Positions 5,900 to 22,609 of a stretch of DNA of 27,451 bases are shown here, piece after piece. The notes under the pieces were generated by a model that had not been told where the DNA came from, searched no databases, and saw only the letters and a list, made by a program, of their open reading frames with translations. Location: the IMG/VR virus record IMGVR_UViG_3300005838_000054, positions 1 through 27,451 of that record; one strand, 5' to 3'. Made by a program: the position numbers and the translations under genes. Numbering within the stretch: the first letter of the stretch is position 1; each line of letters opens with the position of its first letter. Source of the stretch: a virus.

Positions 5900-5946
5900 A
5901 AACTATACTAATAAAGATAGCAACTATACCCAGTGAGGTGTTTAAA

Positions 5947-6696
5947 GTGTCATTGCCAGCAAAGAAGAATGTTGATCTTTCGCTGCTTCATCCACGTTTT
6001 GTACAACGGTTGGAAGCCTTCTTTAGAGATCCGCGTATCAGTGGTCGTGTAAGAATTACAAGTGGTTGCCGAACTTACGCAAAGCAGAAATATTTTTATG
6101 ATGGCTATAAAAATCGTAAGGCTGGATTTAACTTAGCGGCTGATCCGGATCGCCGTTTTGGACCTAAAGCCTTGAATGGTGTTGGGATTTGGCGTGGAAG
6201 TTGGCACATGGAACAGGACGACGGATTTTGCTACGCGGTCGATTTTGGTTTGTGTGGTAATGGAATAAAGAAATGGGAAGTTAATAACATCGCTAAAGAG
6301 TATGGGATGCATCCGACGGTTCGTGGTGAGTGGTGGCATCACCAGCCGCGGGCCTCTACCGATTGGTTTGATGCTCCGGCTATGACTGGTGTGGGAGTTA
6401 AGGAAGAAACAAAAGAACCGGTTATGGATTGGGGGGCATTGTTGAGGTATCACGCTGCTCTTACGGCTGAAATAAGGACGAATCCGATTCGGAGGAAAGA
6501 GCGTTCGGATCGGGTGAAGGTGTTGCAGCGTCGGTTGGGGGCTTTGGGTATTGATTGTGGAAAGATCGACGGGATCTTTGGTTGGGGAACCAAAAGGAAG
6601 GTCAAGCAGTTTCAGCGAATCAACCGTCTGACAAGGGACGGGGTCGTTGGGCCGGAAACGTGGGATGAAATGTGGGGGAGTGAGCCTTTGTCGTAG
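5947..6696 (+). CDS. Endolysin: M15 (VanY-like) peptidase with C-terminal peptidoglycan-binding domain
   Basis: The 249-residue product is read from GTG at 5947, which has GAGGTG six bases upstream; an in-frame GTG at 5938 would add three residues but would lie inside that ribosome site. The M15 zinc peptidase signature is present: SGCRTYAKQK, then GSWHMEQ with H87, AVDFG with D99, and GEWWHHQ with E128 and H131. These correspond to the SxH...D...ExxH residues of D-Ala-D-Ala carboxypeptidases and L-Ala-D-Glu phage endopeptidases. The H-to-D gap is 11 residues, longer than the usual 6. Residues about 180-245 form a PG_binding_1 domain (RVKVLQRRLGALG, DGIFGWGTKRKVKQFQ, DGVVGPETW). It should cleave peptidoglycan cross-links. 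No holin or spanin is adjacent, so a tail-associated role is possible, but the lack of hub-type domains favours a lysis enzyme. Confidence 0.85.
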   Translation: MSLPAKKNVDLSLLHPRFVQRLEAFFRDPRISGRVRITSGCRTYAKQKYFYDGYKNRKAGFNLAADPDRRFGPKALNGVGIWRGSWHMEQDDGFCYAVDFGLCGNGIKKWEVNNIAKEYGMHPTVRGEWWHHQPRASTDWFDAPAMTGVGVKEETKEPVMDWGALLRYHAALTAEIRTNPIRRKERSDRVKVLQRRLGALGIDCGKIDGIFGWGTKRKVKQFQRINRLTRDGVVGPETWDEMWGSEPLS

Positions 6697-15831: not shown

Positions 15832-16163
15832 TGGCAATGACTCAGACGAAACTACACGCACCTTCACAGTTGGGAACTTCGCTTTCCACCCTGTACACGG
15901 TGCCGGGTAGTACAACGACAGTCGTCAAGCAGATTGCTCTGTGTAATACTGCCGCGGCTAACCGGACGGTGACTTTGCATCTGGTTCCAAGTGGCGGTTC
16001 GGCGTCGTCTGCGAATGCTATTCTGTTTGACGTAGCGGTGGATTCCAAGTCCACGACGTTCGTAAACTTATCGGCAGTGATGGCTACTGGTGATTTCATT
16101 CAGGCTTCTGCGAGCGTTGCCGCTTCGGTGTCGATTCATTCATTTGGTATTCAGGAGGCGTAA
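15831..16163 (+). CDS. Small beta-rich tail fibre-associated protein
   Basis: 110 residues, starting in the TAATG junction with the fibre gene. The sequence has a regular strand pattern: LSTLYTVPGSTTTVVKQIAL, NRTVTLHLVPSGGS, ANAILFDVAVDSKSTTFV, and a final VSIHSFGIQEA. It looks like a single beta-sandwich of the kind often found as a stand-alone gene or as an end domain in phage tail fibres (the LYTVP...TTVVK opening is recurrent there, from memory). There is no signal or membrane segment. A trimeric fibre cap or connector is a reasonable inference. Its own end carries AGGAGG (16153-16158), which serves the next gene. Confidence 0.6.
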   Translation: MAMTQTKLHAPSQLGTSLSTLYTVPGSTTTVVKQIALCNTAAANRTVTLHLVPSGGSASSANAILFDVAVDSKSTTFVNLSAVMATGDFIQASASVAASVSIHSFGIQEA

Positions 16164-16822
16164 TGGCTGGTCGGTTAGTCCGAATAGGCGCACCTGATGC
16201 TTTAGCGGATTTCTATGATTCGCCGTCGCACATTTTTGGAAGCGGCGAAGATGGTGCCGTCACTATTAGCACCAACACAACCCTGACTCAAGACAAGTAT
16301 TATCTTGACTTGACAGTTGACAGTGGTGTTACTTTGAATACTGCTGGTTACAGGGTTTTCGTTCAACGAAACCTGTTTCTGTCGGGAACCATAGGAATGG
16401 CCGCTGGCCCTTCCGCCCAAGGATCATTAGGTATCGGCACGCAAGATGCGAATGTTGCCAATTCTCTTGGCGGAGCATCAGCAACCTACACGGCAACCGC
16501 ACCCACGGCGGCTCTTGGCGGCGAACAGTGGTACAAGAATGCTTTGAACGCTATCGACGGTTATTCGTTTGATCCTGCTACGGGAACGATCAACCTGTTG
16601 AAAGGTGGAGCAGGGGACGGAACCAACTATGGCGGTGGAGTGGTAATTGTCGCTGCCCGCTATTTGTTTGGAACCGGAAATGTTTTCGCAAAGGGTGCCG
16701 TCAATGCAGGTGGCGGTGTGGTAATTCTGATTTCCTCAGATAAGAGTCATTCCTATACGGTCAGTGCCGCTGGTACTGGTACCGGCAGTGCGGGGAACAC
16801 TTATTTCCTAGAGGCTGACTAA
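16163..16822 (+). CDS. Glycine-rich tail adhesin, short paralogue
   Basis: 219 residues, TAATG start with AGGAGG four bases upstream. After ~25 residues it has GSGEDGAVTISTNTTLTQDK, then YYLDLTVDSGVTLNTAGYRV and FVQRNLFLSGTIG, a beta-helix-like entry domain shared with the next gene. The C-terminal part is a Gly-rich double sheet: LLKGGAGDGTNYGGGVVIVA, ARYLFGTGNVFAKGAVNAGG, GVVILISSDKSHSYTVSAAG. The direct comparison with the next gene shows the same order of segments, so the two are tandem duplicates, this one lacking the large insert. Likely a receptor-binding or fibre-tip protein. Confidence 0.7.
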   Translation: MAGRLVRIGAPDALADFYDSPSHIFGSGEDGAVTISTNTTLTQDKYYLDLTVDSGVTLNTAGYRVFVQRNLFLSGTIGMAAGPSAQGSLGIGTQDANVANSLGGASATYTATAPTAALGGEQWYKNALNAIDGYSFDPATGTINLLKGGAGDGTNYGGGVVIVAARYLFGTGNVFAKGAVNAGGGVVILISSDKSHSYTVSAAGTGTGSAGNTYFLEAD

Positions 16823-18594
16823 TGGCTGACGCAAACTACGATCAGGGCGTTCGTCGGGAAAAAGATCTTCTTCCTTACGTTGTTGAACTTCTTCCCGAAG
16901 ACGAATTTGGCGACCTTCAATTTGATGGCGACCTGATTTTTGGTCATGGCGGCGACGGTGATGTAACCATTACCACGAATACAAGTTTGACTGAAGACAA
17001 GTATTACGGTAACTTGACTATCAATTCAGGAAAGGTTTTGAACCCGAACGGGTTTCGGGTGTTTGTTAAAAACACGTTGACGTTGAATGGCGACTTGGGT
17101 GTCAAAGAAGATGCAACCAGTGTGTCTACGGGTTCGCTAGAAGGAACCGTTGCTGTTGGACAGAATGTTGTTGATGGCTTGGGCGGTTCAGGGGAACCTG
17201 ACGGTTATGTGCCGGGGTACACATTCTCTAGTTCTGGGTCTGTCACCAGTTCGGTTGGTGTGACGGTCCCTGATTTTTATGATCTTCGTGATGCCATCAA
17301 TGCTTACAAGCAGCGCGGTTCCGATTTCATTCGCGTAAAGGGCGGCGCAGGTGGCGGTACGGGAGCGGACGGAATTAGTGGGGCCGGTGCTGACGGCAGT
17401 ATGGGTCCGGGCGCTTCTAACCCCCATCCTAATTATCAGACTGTTGGAGCGGCGGGTGGTAAGGGATCGACAGGCGTGGCCGGTACCGGTGGCGGTGGTG
17501 GTCGGGGTAGCGCAGTTGTAATGGTTTCGGCTCGTCAGATCACTGGGTCTGGTGGTTTGTATTCCGAGGGTGGTGCAGGCGTTTCGGGAACGGCAGGAAC
17601 TCCCGGCACTAAAGCACCTGACGCCACGATAACACCACCTTCTACGTTGGCTCCGGGGAATCATCACCATCGGGAGTCTGGTACGCCGGGTGCTAATGAA
17701 ACTCCGAATCCGGCTGTTACTAACCATCATCAAAATGTTGTTAGTCCGGGTACACCTTTTTCGGGGGATCATCACCATACGTCAGTCACGAACCCCGGAG
17801 AACCATATAACCACGCCACTCAGCCCACAACTAATGATCCGACACATACGTCTGTTGGTGGTAACACGAATGCGGATACAACGAATCATCACGCAACTCC
17901 GGGCACAACTAACAATCCGACACATACGTTTGTTCCCGGTAATACGAATCCGGATGGAACGAATCATCACACTTCAAGCAACCCCGGCACCCATGTGCCG
18001 TCTGGCGGCAACCATAACCCTCCGGTTCCATATCCGGGTCCGGGCGGACACGCACCGGGTAACCAAAATCCGACCAATCACTCCTATCAGCCGGGCAACC
18101 ATCATCACTCTTCAGCGGTAAGTCCGGGTACACCGAATCCAAGTAATCACTTTTCGACGCCGGGCACCCATCACGGTAATCCTGATGGAAGTGCGGTAAG
18201 TCCGGGCACGACTAATCCGACTAATCACTTTTCGACGCCGGGCACCCATCACGGTAATCCTGATGGAAGTGGCGTTAACCCCCCGGTCCAGAACCATCAC
18301 ACAGTTACCAATCCGGGTGGCGTGAATCCGGATGTGCCGAACACTGAACACGGTGCCCACACTACACCGGGGACGACCAACCATCACGGTGTGACCAATC
18401 CGTCGGTTACCACCAATTATCCGACAGAGTATTACATTGGTGGTGCGGGCGGTGCGGGAACTGACGGTCAGCGCGGTGGACGCGGTGGCGGTGGTGTCTT
18501 GATTGTGGTCACCAGAAAAGCCGGTACACCGAGTTACACTCTCAACACAGGAGTAAATGGCAACGCGATTGCCCTAGACACGGCGGATATCTAA
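16822..18594 (+). CDS. Glycine-rich tail adhesin with a ~270-residue His/Asn/X-Pro-Gly insert
   Basis: 590 residues, one-base overlap with its short paralogue. Residues about 35-95 repeat the paralogue's entry domain (FGHGGDGDVTITTNTSLTED, YYGNLTINSGKVLNPNGFRV, FVKNTLTLNGDLG). Gly-rich layers follow (RVKGGAGGGTGADG, GGGGGRGSAVVMVSARQITG). Then, between the two sheet layers that are contiguous in the paralogue, residues about 260-533 form an insert with about 34 His, 18 X-Pro-Gly triplets and many Asn/Thr (TNHHATPGTTNNPTHT, QPGNHHHSSAVSPGTPNP). The Gly-rich sheet then resumes (GGAGGAGTDGQRGGRGGGG, VLIVVTRKAGTPSYTLN). No enzyme motif is present. The insert could be a metal-binding or polyproline-like stalk; HxH-type iron sites of T4 gp37 are a loose precedent only. 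The gene directly precedes the enzyme cassette. Confidence 0.75.
   Translation: MADANYDQGVRREKDLLPYVVELLPEDEFGDLQFDGDLIFGHGGDGDVTITTNTSLTEDKYYGNLTINSGKVLNPNGFRVFVKNTLTLNGDLGVKEDATSVSTGSLEGTVAVGQNVVDGLGGSGEPDGYVPGYTFSSSGSVTSSVGVTVPDFYDLRDAINAYKQRGSDFIRVKGGAGGGTGADGISGAGADGSMGPGASNPHPNYQTVGAAGGKGSTGVAGTGGGGGRGSAVVMVSARQITGSGGLYSEGGAGVSGTAGTPGTKAPDATITPPSTLAPGNHHHRESGTPGANETPNPAVTNHHQNVVSPGTPFSGDHHHTSVTNPGEPYNHATQPTTNDPTHTSVGGNTNADTTNHHATPGTTNNPTHTFVPGNTNPDGTNHHTSSNPGTHVPSGGNHNPPVPYPGPGGHAPGNQNPTNHSYQPGNHHHSSAVSPGTPNPSNHFSTPGTHHGNPDGSAVSPGTTNPTNHFSTPGTHHGNPDGSGVNPPVQNHHTVTNPGGVNPDVPNTEHGAHTTPGTTNHHGVTNPSVTTNYPTEYYIGGAGGAGTDGQRGGRGGGGVLIVVTRKAGTPSYTLNTGVNGNAIALDTADI
18115..18270 (+). repeat. Two tandem 78-base repeats inside the His/Pro-rich insert
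   Basis: Unit 1 is 18115-18192 and unit 2 is 18193-18270. The last part is identical over 50 bases (18144-18193 and 18222-18271); the first ~28 bases differ at a few positions. Each unit encodes 26 residues with SPGT, NHFSTPGTHHG and NPDGS. The high DNA identity points to a recent duplication, in contrast to the diverged repeats of the upstream fibre. Confidence 0.9.
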
Positions 18595-19044
18595 ATGAAA
18601 ACAATGATGTATGTTCCTGAAAAGGAACAGACTGAAGACTATTTGAAAGAAGCGGAATGGTGGGGCATAGAGATATGCCACGGTATGCCGCCGAAGGTGT
18701 TGGAAGAGTTTCCCGATATCACCCCACCTGAAGCATCTATCGTCAAGATTCCTGAAATCAATGACATATCTATGCGGTGTGGAGAAATGCCCGTTGGGCA
18801 TTACCAGAATATTTTATTGGTGAATGAGTATGTCGATTTGAGAGATGGGGATCTCTCATTGGATCTAGTGGAAAACCGCAAGAAGGAAACTGTTTTTGAA
18901 GGGTTGAAGCCTCAGTGGACTGAACGTAGTCGGGCACGATGGTCGTTCGTGGTAGAGGGTTTGGGCAGATACACAGCGAAAGTGATGCTAGATTCTGATG
19001 AGATTTCTTGTATCAATTTCTACGCGTTTAAAAGGCTCACTTGA
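18595..19044 (+). CDS. Unknown protein at the head of the oxygenase-halogenase cassette
   Basis: 149 residues, starting directly after the previous stop (TAA then ATG). I do not recognise the family. It has a charged N-terminal half (EKEQTEDYLKEAEWWGIEI, PKVLEEFPDITPPEASIV) and a C-terminal half with possible beta strands (NILLVNEYVDL, ARWSFVVEGLGRYTAKVML, SCINFYAFKRL). No signal peptide, membrane segment or metal motif is seen. Its stop overlaps the start of the first oxygenase gene (TGATG), so the two are probably translated together, which suggests a role with the enzymes, such as substrate binding. Confidence 0.55.
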   Translation: MKTMMYVPEKEQTEDYLKEAEWWGIEICHGMPPKVLEEFPDITPPEASIVKIPEINDISMRCGEMPVGHYQNILLVNEYVDLRDGDLSLDLVENRKKETVFEGLKPQWTERSRARWSFVVEGLGRYTAKVMLDSDEISCINFYAFKRLT

Positions 19045-19844
19045 TGGAACTATTGGCACCGGGTTTGGCCATTTGGCGTAATCAGCCTTATGGCGAAGTC
19101 GATGATGAATTCGTTTTAGATTTGTGGAGAGAAAGATACGAAGCAGATCGTGAAACAAAATGGACTGGCAATCCTAAAGACGGACCGGTTGCTGGCCACG
19201 AAGCGGCTTATGGTCCTCTCAGGTGTCGAAACATTCCGCGTCACGGTGGTTTGGTACGGGGTAACAAGTATGACGATTTCACTTTCATACTTCAGGAAGA
19301 TTTGTTTGCATGTTTGTCAGATTACGCGTACGAATATCGGACGCTTCCTATTGATCTAGGATGGCAGGAAACCCACAGGCTCCTTTATTATTATCCGGGT
19401 GCCCAAATGGGGCCACATTCAGACAACACCCCTACTCGTTTTCAAGATGCCCACGGAGGGGAGGTTACTGATCCTGTGGCACCGTCACGGGTTCTGTGTT
19501 CTTTGCAGTTTTTAACCACTAATGAAAAAGACTTTGTTGGAGGCGAATTACATTTTCCGTTTTTGGATGTGGAATACAGGCCATCCAAGGGTGACACTTT
19601 GATTTATCCTGCCAACTTTTTGCATACGCATAGCGTGCAAGCGGTCTTGGATGGAATCAGGATTACAAATCTTTCGTGCTTCTGTCAGGGGGATTTCACC
19701 AAGTTAGCATGGGTGGATATGGGTAATGGTGGTGGGAGGGATTCCGATAACAATGTTCCGGTGCCGGGTGGAAACATGCATATAGAACACGAAGATCTAG
19801 GGGAGAGGCTTAAATTCAAATGGAGGTCGTATGCCAATTCATAA
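19044..19844 (+). CDS. 2-oxoglutarate/Fe(II)-dependent oxygenase, P4H-like (first of two)
   Basis: 266 residues from the ATG of TGATG at 19044; a TTG at 19041 is in frame but inside the previous gene. The double-stranded beta-helix oxygenase signature is complete: LLYYYPGAQMGPHSDNT gives H125 and D127 of the HxD iron motif; LCSLQFLT then GGELHFPFLDVEYRPSKGD; and NFLHTHSVQAVLDGIRITNL gives H196 with R206 ten residues later, the usual distal His and the 2-oxoglutarate-binding Arg. The YYPG...HSD and GGEL.FP....V.P..GD spacings are typical of prolyl 4-hydroxylase-like enzymes. The reaction would be oxygen- and 2-oxoglutarate-dependent hydroxylation of an unknown substrate. The N-terminal ~85 residues are a family-specific extension. 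It overlaps the next gene by 14 bases. Confidence 0.88.
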   Translation: MELLAPGLAIWRNQPYGEVDDEFVLDLWRERYEADRETKWTGNPKDGPVAGHEAAYGPLRCRNIPRHGGLVRGNKYDDFTFILQEDLFACLSDYAYEYRTLPIDLGWQETHRLLYYYPGAQMGPHSDNTPTRFQDAHGGEVTDPVAPSRVLCSLQFLTTNEKDFVGGELHFPFLDVEYRPSKGDTLIYPANFLHTHSVQAVLDGIRITNLSCFCQGDFTKLAWVDMGNGGGRDSDNNVPVPGGNMHIEHEDLGERLKFKWRSYANS

Positions 19845-20409
19845 TCCTGCTCCCGGCATGGCTGTTATGGAGAATGCTTATCCAGAATCAGCAAAGTTCT
19901 TGGCAGATATTATTGAAGCAGCCGAATTGGAATATTCCCCCAGCGCGTGGCGGCGCTCCCAGACAGGACACGGAACTTTAGGGGATCACAGAAGCAGTGT
20001 TGAATCTGATTTTACGCAACTTCTCTGTAGCCGCGAACCAGAATATGAGGCTCTTGCCGAATCAACTAGATCGTTTCAACAGACTTTGGACGAGTTGGTA
20101 AACGAATTCAAGAGTGTTTACGATCTTGGCTTATGTTCAGACGAGGGACTTCGATGCATCCGTTACCAGAATAAGGCTGAATACAGGATTCATCATGATC
20201 ATGGGGAACTCAATATGCGGGCATTGAGCATGGTGATGTTTCTCAATGACGACTTTGAAGGAGGGCAATTAGAATTTCCCTACTTCGATGTTACGATTCA
20301 ACCCAAGGCCGGACAGTTGGTGTTTTTTCCTTCCAACTTTCCTTACGCTCACATCGCTCATCCTGTAGAAGAGGGAACCAAATACACGCTTGTTACATGG
20401 TTCCGCTGA
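19831..20409 (+). CDS. 2-oxoglutarate/Fe(II)-dependent oxygenase, P4H-like (second of two)
   Basis: 192 residues, with AAATGGAGG shortly upstream inside the end of the first oxygenase. Iron ligands H121 and D123 lie in YRIHHDHGEL; the strand MRALSMVMFLNDDFEGGQLE leads to FPYFDVTIQPKAGQLVFFP; the distal His is H174 in YAHIAHPVEEGTKYTLVTWF, with K184 at +10 taking the place of the Arg that binds 2-oxoglutarate (Lys is common in prolyl 4-hydroxylases). It shares the GG.L.FP.FDV...P..G pattern with the first oxygenase but is diverged elsewhere, so this is either an old duplication or an independent gain. It probably hydroxylates a peptide or small molecule. The substrate is unknown. Confidence 0.88.
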   Translation: MPIHNPAPGMAVMENAYPESAKFLADIIEAAELEYSPSAWRRSQTGHGTLGDHRSSVESDFTQLLCSREPEYEALAESTRSFQQTLDELVNEFKSVYDLGLCSDEGLRCIRYQNKAEYRIHHDHGELNMRALSMVMFLNDDFEGGQLEFPYFDVTIQPKAGQLVFFPSNFPYAHIAHPVEEGTKYTLVTWFR

Positions 20410-20418
20410 GTATATTTC

Positions 20419-21897
20419 ATGGCTGACAGGATTAAAGACAGACGAGTTGTTGTTGTCGGCGGTGGAAATGCTGGTTTGGTAACTGCTTTAGTTTTACGTC
20501 AGGCGTTTAGTGGTTACAGAATCACTGTTATCCAATCGGATGCCATCGGAACGATTGGTGTAGGGGAGGGGTCCACAGAGCAATGGCGTGGATTCATGAA
20601 CTATGTGGGCATTCCTGTGGCGGAGTTGATATCAGCGACAGGGGCAACCCATAAAAAGGGAATCCGTTTTGAGGGCTGGAACGAACATACTCCCGATTAT
20701 TTTCATGCCACCACAGGTATATGCGATCCACCTATGGTATTCGGTTTTAATGCTGCCTATGGAAAATTGATTTCTGAAGGCAAGTTATTGACCGATCACA
20801 CTTCACATCCTAAACTAAAAGAAAATCAGATTCCTTCTATCAATGCTCATCAACAGGTTAATCAATTTCACTTTGATACACATGAGTTAAATTATTTTCT
20901 TAGATTCAAAGCAGAACAAAAGAATATTACTTTTATAGAAGGGGAAGTAGAAGATGTCAGGGTTTCTGATGATTGGATCGGAAGTGTAGGACTCGTCGGT
21001 CAGGAAGAAAGAATCACTGGTGATTTTTGGATTGATGCTTCTGGATTCCGACAGGTGTTGATGTCTGAACTCTCCGATAAAAAATGGAACTCGTTTAGTA
21101 AATATCTTTTGGGTGATTCGGCAATCGCTTTTCCAACTCCATCTGATGAGAGCGGGGAAATCCGAACGTATACCCGAGCAAGAGCCATGAAAAATGGATG
21201 GGCTTGGGAGATCCCTACTCAGTTCAGGCGCGGCAACGGCTATGTGTATTCTTCAAAGTTTTGTTCAGAGGAGGATGCCGTATCCGAGATGGAAGAACTA
21301 TTGGACATCCGACTATCGGACTACAAACATTTTCGATTTGATCCGGGCTATCTGGAAAAGATGTGGGTAGGGAACTGTATCGCCGTGGGTCTTGCGGGTT
21401 CGTTCGTGGAACCTCTAGAGGCGACATCCATTGGGTCCACGATTCAACAGGCGTTTATGATGGTTGGAGGGTTGGCGTCATTCCGTAAAGGATATGTATG
21501 GGGGGCTAGAGAATATAATCGTCAGTTTGAAGACATCATGTCTAATATTTTGGACATGATCAGATTGCATTATATTTCTGATCGCACAGATACTGATTTC
21601 TGGTTAGCGCAACAGGAGACACCCATACCGGAAAATTTGGAACATCTATTGGGTTTATGGTCGGAGCGTCCTTTGCAAGACACGGACGCATCCGGAGCGT
21701 ATTGGATGTTCAGTCATCCGCACTTTGCTCATGTGGCTCAAGGCCAAGGAGTTTTCAATCTTCAGGCATCGCAGGATGCTTTGGATGCTTTCGGTATCAA
21801 TGATACTGTGAATGATTATATGTGGAACTTGAAAGAACAGCGAAGTTGCCCTGTGAGGGATCATGCTGAAGCGCTTAAAGAACTTATCGAAGATTAG
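20419..21897 (+). CDS. Flavin-dependent halogenase (tryptophan halogenase family)
   Basis: 492 residues. The hallmarks are all visible: FAD-binding VVVVGGGNAGLVTA (G14, G16, G19); GVGEGSTEQW, the family's GxGE motif; K79 in ATHKKGIRFEGW, aligned with the catalytic Lys79 of PrnA; W261 to P266 (WAWEIP), the WxWxIP motif that marks halogenases off from monooxygenases; and SFVEPLEATSI, whose E334 aligns with catalytic Glu346 of PrnA. The next residue is Ala335 where PrnA and RebH have Ser. Such enzymes use reduced FAD, oxygen and halide to halogenate aromatic compounds. The flavin reductase partner is not in the window and may come from the host. A cyanophage enzyme of this class (VirX1) is known to iodinate diverse substrates, so a phage origin is not itself new. 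It overlaps the next gene by 35 bases. Confidence 0.92.
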   Translation: MADRIKDRRVVVVGGGNAGLVTALVLRQAFSGYRITVIQSDAIGTIGVGEGSTEQWRGFMNYVGIPVAELISATGATHKKGIRFEGWNEHTPDYFHATTGICDPPMVFGFNAAYGKLISEGKLLTDHTSHPKLKENQIPSINAHQQVNQFHFDTHELNYFLRFKAEQKNITFIEGEVEDVRVSDDWIGSVGLVGQEERITGDFWIDASGFRQVLMSELSDKKWNSFSKYLLGDSAIAFPTPSDESGEIRTYTRARAMKNGWAWEIPTQFRRGNGYVYSSKFCSEEDAVSEMEELLDIRLSDYKHFRFDPGYLEKMWVGNCIAVGLAGSFVEPLEATSIGSTIQQAFMMVGGLASFRKGYVWGAREYNRQFEDIMSNILDMIRLHYISDRTDTDFWLAQQETPIPENLEHLLGLWSERPLQDTDASGAYWMFSHPHFAHVAQGQGVFNLQASQDALDAFGINDTVNDYMWNLKEQRSCPVRDHAEALKELIED

Positions 21898-22609
21898 AAG
21901 TTACATCGACTGGCCCAAGGTCCAGCCGGGTGAGATTCTGGTTGTTCCTTCAGACAACAGGCTGCATGAGCATCCCCCGTTTCTCAATGATAAAGGTTGG
22001 CCTGATTGGTATAAGGCTCCGGAAATAGCGGAAGCCGGAACCATCAACAGTTGTAAGGGCATTCAAGATTATTTGTCAATAGGAATGACTGTGCCCCTAT
22101 GGTGTGATGTCGAAGTTTCTCCGCTGGGGATGGACGATATGACGGCCCGCACCAGTGATGCTGCGTTTGAGATACAGAGATTCGACAAGCGGATGACAAG
22201 GGGATGCCCAATAGCCAAAGGGCGTGAACGACCCAATGCTGGTTGGCCCAAGATCGTATCCCCATGGCTCTATAAGACTGCTCCGGGCTACTCCACGTTG
22301 GCGTTGCCGATTGCTTACGAACCGGATCCCCGGTACCAAGTCTTACCAGCAGTAATTCATACTGATTATTATCATAACTTGCATGTTGTGATTAGAGCAA
22401 TGGTAGAAGATAATTTTACTATTACGGCGGGAACTCCCATTTATCAACTATTTCCTTTTAAACGTAAGAATAAGTTGCACACTATTATTATGGGTGATGC
22501 AGCGATGCATCGTGATGGGCAAACCCGAGGCATGAACTACGGATCTATAGGGAAATTTTCTGTCAAGGGTGCTTACCGGAAACATCAACGGAAGGCTGAC
22601 GCCGACTAA
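21863..22609 (+). CDS. Conserved protein of unknown function linked to the halogenase
   Basis: 248 residues, starting inside the halogenase gene (35-base overlap, with GAGGGA just upstream of the ATG). Visible features: PPFLNDKGWPDWYK, NSCKGIQDYLSIGMTVPLWC and DVEVSP, then VSPWLYKTAPGYSTLALPIA, HTDYYHNLHVVIRAM, FTITAGTPIYQLFPFKRK. This DWYK / C..(I/F)..D....G / PLW.D / (T)APGYS / D.Y / GTP..Q.FPFKR set resembles a family I remember from marine phages and from bacterial halogenase or 2OG neighbourhoods (labelled DUF6065 or similar); the identity is not verified. No known catalytic triad is evident. The overlap suggests it works with the halogenase, for example as a substrate-handling partner. 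Confidence 0.6.
   Translation: MLKRLKNLSKIRSYIDWPKVQPGEILVVPSDNRLHEHPPFLNDKGWPDWYKAPEIAEAGTINSCKGIQDYLSIGMTVPLWCDVEVSPLGMDDMTARTSDAAFEIQRFDKRMTRGCPIAKGRERPNAGWPKIVSPWLYKTAPGYSTLALPIAYEPDPRYQVLPAVIHTDYYHNLHVVIRAMVEDNFTITAGTPIYQLFPFKRKNKLHTIIMGDAAMHRDGQTRGMNYGSIGKFSVKGAYRKHQRKADAD

Follow-up and report, generated by a model that had tools for sequence, protein, structure and literature searches.

A translationally coupled oxygenase and halogenase cassette behind a hypervariable phage adhesin suggests chemical decoration of phage particles, though not specifically at X-Pro-Gly

Marine phages often carry genes for 2OG oxygenases and Trp halogenases, and these genes are unexplained. P4H-like folds are widespread in these phages (PMC12774648), and the function of viral 2OG genes is, according to one cyanophage paper, not specifically investigated (PMC9602691). 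Other papers place 2OG genes in repair or in metabolism and see the halogenase as a protection against antibiotics (PMC2984593, PMC9964418); collagen-like viral fibres have been raised as a possible target of P4H (PMC9301287). In haloarchaeal hafunaviruses, host range is determined by the glycine-rich adhesin (PMC8651126). The searched literature yielded no paper that ties 2OG or halogenase genes to phage adhesins. Their linkage to adhesins and to proline-rich proteins, described here, makes the function of both enzyme families directly testable.

The DNA analyzed (the window; 27,451 bases) is one whole IMG/VR record, a fragment from a marine phage. Its adhesin and the genes around it are the following.

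16163-16822, plus strand: 219-residue paralogue of the adhesin's N-terminal domain, lacking the insert (phrog_13336, E 7e-7, a family common to the adhesin)
16822-18594, plus strand: adhesin, 590 residues, with a conserved N-terminal domain and glycine-rich blocks flanking an insert (open reading frame; flank identity among 11 adhesins)
17599-18438, plus strand: hypervariable low-complexity insert of the adhesin, residues 260-539, 280 residues (composition; 78-nt duplications; 29% median identity between lineages)
18595-19044, plus strand: orf149, cassette protein of 149 residues, predicted Ig/filamin-like beta-sandwich (AlphaFold2 pLDDT 89; Foldseek 6oe6, E 2.4e-4, and 7o0b, E 4e-4)
19044-19844, plus strand: ox1, 2OG-Fe(II) oxygenase with H125, D127, H196 and R206 (PF13640, 2OG-FeII_Oxy_3, 28.5 bits)
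19831-20409, plus strand: ox2, P4H-type 2OG-Fe(II) oxygenase with H121, D123, H174 and K184 (PF13640, 58.4 bits; Bacillus P4H 3itq/5hv0, E 1e-8)
20419-21897, plus strand: flavin-dependent (Trp-type) halogenase homologue (PF04820, 337 bits; matches 30 solved halogenase sequences)
21863-22609, plus strand: phrog_7084 protein (o248), predicted dUTPase-like beta-clip fold (phrog_7084, E 7e-22; AlphaFold2 pLDDT 68; Foldseek dUTPases, E 2e-4)

The adhesin has no match to a Pfam family, and its only PHROG match, phrog_13336, is to the N-terminal domain. The paralogue that precedes it is 82-85% identical in relatives and matches the adhesin of the haloarchaeal virus HRTV-15 over 53 residues (E 3e-3). 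IMG/VR scans and one genome scan yield 11 distinct adhesins at this locus, the window's included; over their 55 pairs the median identity is 74% in the N-side flank and 86% in the C-side flank (74-86% for the pooled flanks) as against 29% in the insert. A hypervariable segment between conserved glycine-rich flanks is a feature of gp38-like adhesins, and the insert is probably the receptor-facing hypervariable loop of a glycine-rich tail adhesin. It contains 45 Pro, 34 His and 37 Asn, is also rich in Thr and Gly, and has few Tyr and no Trp. A collagen-like insert was considered and rejected: no Gly-x-y repeat is found in the insert, and the longest run in the whole adhesin (7 triplets) lies outside it. 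Elsewhere in the window, a gene at 5938-6696, which by eye resembles a peptidase/peptidoglycan-binding gene, shares 91% identity with its counterpart in two relatives (L015/L016), while adjacent genes are 43-62% identical; the sequences are compatible with a possible recent exchange.

From the adhesin, which ends at 18594, to the phrog_7084 gene, all genes are coupled, with gaps of 0-10 nt or overlaps. An earlier note on this DNA had remarked on the adjacency of the adhesin and two oxygenases; these are indeed coupled genes, with orf149, which the note did not mention, sitting between, and the halogenase-family and phrog_7084 genes were likewise absent from its account. Both oxygenases exceed the PF13640 cut-off of 27 bits, and the iron motifs reported for them are intact: HxD...H, with R or K ten residues further on, identifies both as 2OG-Fe(II) oxygenases, and HxD...H...K/R is kept in 25/25 cassette 2OG proteins of the window and its relatives. 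Their description as two P4H-like enzymes stands for ox2, which has the P4H Lys at the 2OG-binding position (K184) and a P4H as its closest solved relative (3itq/5hv0). It does not stand for ox1, which has Arg at that position (R206) and gave no match in a PDB sequence search. By its 2OG-binding residue ox1 is not of the P4H class, yet it may, by analogy, have prolyl activity despite R206, because Arg at this position occurs in PHD-type prolyl hydroxylases.

The halogenase homologue belongs to PF04820 and, aligned with solved halogenases, has GxGxxG, the catalytic Lys, WxWxIP and the catalytic Glu; it matches VirX1 (6qgm) at E 7e-53. VirX1 comes from Syn10, a phage related to the cyanophages described below. 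The dUTPase-like beta-clip fold of the phrog_7084 protein is predicted with moderate confidence. Orf149 is without a Pfam, PHROG or NCBIfam match, and single-sequence searches of isolated phages or IMG/VR with ox1, orf149 or the adhesin returned nothing, or the close group only.

At least two 2OG genes, a halogenase gene and a phrog_7084 gene lie downstream of 11/11 distinct adhesins, all of them bearing the insert; adhesins lacking it were not found. Frequent occurrence of the insert in phages lacking 2OG genes, which the earlier note had named as a refuting observation, is not seen (0/11 adhesins). Within a single phage group, conserved synteny may reflect nothing more than common descent. 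The insert is Asn-rich in most lineages with ox1 and Glu-rich in those with oxX (a different, third oxygenase type), and L039, which has both enzymes, is intermediate; this covariation of Asn content with ox1 and of Glu content with oxX is suggestive only, the lineages being few and related.

The same gene set recurs outside this group. Four families were looked for in 13 halogenase-bearing phage records, and in five cyanophages of another family (Syn9, S-RIM44, P-TIM40, Sf-FR1 and S-CREM1) the order is Gly-rich adhesin or adhesins, 1-2 halogenases, phrog_7084 and 2-5 2OG genes, over a span of about 6-16 kb. On random circular shift the proximity of halogenase to Gly-rich adhesin has p 5e-5 and that of halogenase to phrog_7084 p 1.5e-4 (the genomes are related, and these values are not corrected for relatedness). 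The median distance from halogenase to 2OG genes reaches only p 0.02, and the distance from Gly-rich to 2OG genes, taken alone, is not significant in these cyanophages (p 0.26); many 2OG genes are also scattered outside the module. A JmjC_2 (PF08007) gene lies within the Syn9 module (L028, 13030-13740). The JmjC_2 family includes known ribosomal-protein hydroxylases. In S-SRM01 the halogenase lies between a tail fibre and the gp37-gp38 adhesin tip, and in haloarchaeal hafunaviruses a phrog_7084-like gene is found about 1 kb from the glycine-rich adhesin. The actinobacterial phage DSL-LC01 (L126, 2028-7497) has a halogenase near two collagen-annotated genes; a PF13640 match was not found in its genome.

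A second pairing involves small proline-rich proteins. The window ends upstream of the region concerned, and the pairing is known from relatives and other contigs. In five relatives (L045, L047, L049, L050 and L132) a small downstream protein has a PASTA head and a tail of (F/H/Y)FPP repeats, and behind its gene come glutathione-peroxidase-like, TauD, DUF6065 or phrog_7084-like, and P4H-like genes. Among 70 contigs retrieved for their resemblance to another tail gene (o516), which were not selected for repeats and include several near duplicates, 2OG genes are found in 9/13 that encode a repeat protein, its head PASTA or fn3-like, and in 0/57 that do not (Fisher 1e-8). A repeat-directed scan gave 80 loci, 53 of them with at least 1 kb of downstream sequence, and a P4H-like gene lies within 3 kb in 38/53. 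Small proteins of this type, in which a fn3-like or PASTA head carries a long tail of (F/H/Y)FPP tetrapeptides, are encoded ahead of P4H-like 2OG genes at L051:15559-16134, L066:8377-8913, L074:10292-10915, L090:10463-11026 and L047:15658-16155 and in L151-L230. The gene at L120:11049-11648 is the sole (x-F-P-P)n gene among the 70 contigs that has downstream room and yet no 2OG gene found. No PHROG match was obtained for the three (F/H/Y)FPP proteins scanned; two (x-F-P-P)n proteins compared with isolated phages gave no match, in a search (BLAST) that masks such repeats.

One relative, L132 (G001:C74, 243-8852), has at least seven 2OG genes in about 9 kb that also contain TauD, DUF6065 and glutathione-peroxidase-like genes; this contig was assigned to a gammaproteobacterial MAG in which two phage contigs of the window's group are found as well. 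A link through DUF6065 to a bacterial operon of TonB, SapC and halogenase genes was dropped, the neighbours of DUF6065 in seven genomes having no match to the halogenase or 2OG proteins of the cassette. Kinship of phrog_7084 with DUF6065 is not claimed, the resemblance being weak (PHROG E 0.004, hhalign probability 4.8%).

The earlier note had proposed that one or both oxygenases hydroxylate the insert, whose X-Pro-Gly triplets are preferred by collagen-type prolyl 4-hydroxylases, and so stiffen or alter the receptor-facing surface. The adhesin has 20 such triplets, and the 18 reported for the insert, between the two glycine-rich blocks, are all there: shuffling of insert residues predicts 5.7 +/- 2.0 (5.4-5.7), with a maximum of 14 in 5000 shuffles, and Pro-Gly density is 6.4 per 100 residues in the insert as against 0.32 across the remaining window proteins. 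The P4H lysine of ox2 and its match to the Bacillus enzyme also speak for this proposal. The triplets are not all independent: several are copies produced by a pair of 78-nt tandem duplications (17812-17970, 18115-18271), which inflate the window's count. Across the 11 adhesins the inserts have 18 (window), 8, 8, 5, 11, 10, 1, 8, 8, 1 and 2; the number is above chance in L003, L007, L016, L131 and L039 as well, borderline in L008 and L038 (8 in the latter), and not in excess in L133 (1), L047 (1) and L033 (2), these last three having complete enzyme sets. The L038/L047 pair is the clearest case: oxygenases that are 97% and 92% identical and halogenases that are 94% identical accompany 8 triplets in one phage and 1 in the other, so that the enzymes are kept where the triplets are not. 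Ox1, moreover, has Arg in place of the P4H Lys, and the insert has no collagen-like Gly-x-y repeat. X-Pro-Gly is rejected as a conserved substrate signal by this comparison (counts of 1-18 beside kept enzymes); it is at most one of several modification contexts, and collagen-type hydroxylation of the insert is quite unlikely.

Less improbable, though still unlikely, is that the oxygenase and halogenase genes are auxiliary metabolic genes whose products have small molecules, nucleic acids or proteins of the host as their targets, and that they lie in the tail region by chance. DNA repair, 2-oxoglutarate or host metabolism, and antibiotic protection are the usual readings in the cyanophage literature (PMC2984593, PMC9602691, PMC9964418), and the numerous, scattered 2OG genes of cyanophages fit them. 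Coupling to the adhesin, recurrence with adhesins in unrelated phages and the 2OG clusters behind (x-F-P-P)n genes argue the other way, as does the JmjC_2 gene of the Syn9 module. It is also conceivable that the insert works unmodified, for example by binding metal through His in the manner of iron-binding HxH tail fibres, the enzymes serving other virion proteins. Nine of 11 inserts have 19-53 His, often as HH or HHH, and iron-binding fibres have been proposed (PMC11705849). Yet the inserts of L133 and L033 have only 7-9 His beside a cassette of the same kind, the repeat seen does not have the HxH spacing of iron-binding fibres, and the coupled enzymes are left unexplained; we regard an unmodified metal-binding insert as very unlikely.

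We somewhat favor modification of the adhesin by the cassette: the translationally coupled enzymes would oxidatively modify the adjoining adhesin during virion assembly, a substrate link that we infer from gene neighborhood only. Candidate sites of hydroxylation by the 2OG oxygenases are the Pro, Asn, His or Asp side chains of the low-complexity insert. A further mark may come from the halogenase homologue, and orf149 and the phrog_7084 protein are possible helpers; the adhesin is a candidate substrate, and the modified residues and any effect on binding are likewise putative. The part of the earlier proposal that has the enzymes acting on the adhesin thus retains circumstantial support, from the 11/11 linkage, the adhesin/halogenase/2OG modules and the (x-F-P-P)n/2OG pairs of unrelated phages, while X-Pro-Gly as the target does not. 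Counting against modification by the cassette, the halogenase has no obvious target residue in the insert, because Trp is absent and Tyr scarce there; the lineages are related, and cyanophage 2OG genes are also abundant elsewhere in their genomes. More tentatively, at a little under an even chance, the cassette may belong to a transferable virion-maturation system of aquatic phages, in which clusters of P4H-like 2OG enzymes, frequently accompanied by a flavin halogenase and by a phrog_7084 or DUF6065 protein, hydroxylate (perhaps halogenate) adjacent low-complexity virion proteins, namely hypervariable adhesin inserts and (F/H/Y)FPP tails.

As read from sequence, the recurring pairing of adhesins and enzymes suggests that phages chemically decorate their own particles, though not specifically at X-Pro-Gly. 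If so, phages would vary the surfaces that face the receptor by chemistry in addition to sequence, and two gene families that are normally classed as auxiliary metabolic genes would have a function in virion maturation.

Several described systems resemble parts of this locus. An algal virus likewise encodes a P4H-type enzyme together with proline-rich proteins of its own as possible substrates; the enzyme is not known to be coupled to an adhesin gene there, and its activity on peptides has been measured. The Bacillus anthracis P4H (3itq, 5hv0) shares HxD...H...K with ox2 and is its closest solved relative, although only about 100 residues align (E 1e-8). The gp38 adhesins of T-even phages, S16 and PP01 and the adhesins of haloarchaeal hafunaviruses (PMC12892980, PMC8651126) have, like the window's adhesin, hypervariable tail-tip segments bordered by glycine-rich blocks, and an N-terminal domain family is weakly shared with the HRTV-15 adhesin. 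Where they have short loops, the window's adhesin has a single, very long low-complexity insert; it also differs from them in its enzyme cassette directly downstream and in having no Pfam gp38 match. A further such system is the module of Syn9, S-RIM44, P-TIM40, Sf-FR1 and S-CREM1: its adhesin loops are rich in Gly, His and Asn but not in Pro, its halogenase and phrog_7084 genes come before the 2OG genes, and no orf149 is seen in it, but Gly-rich adhesins, halogenase, phrog_7084 and 2OG genes stand together there as they do in the window.
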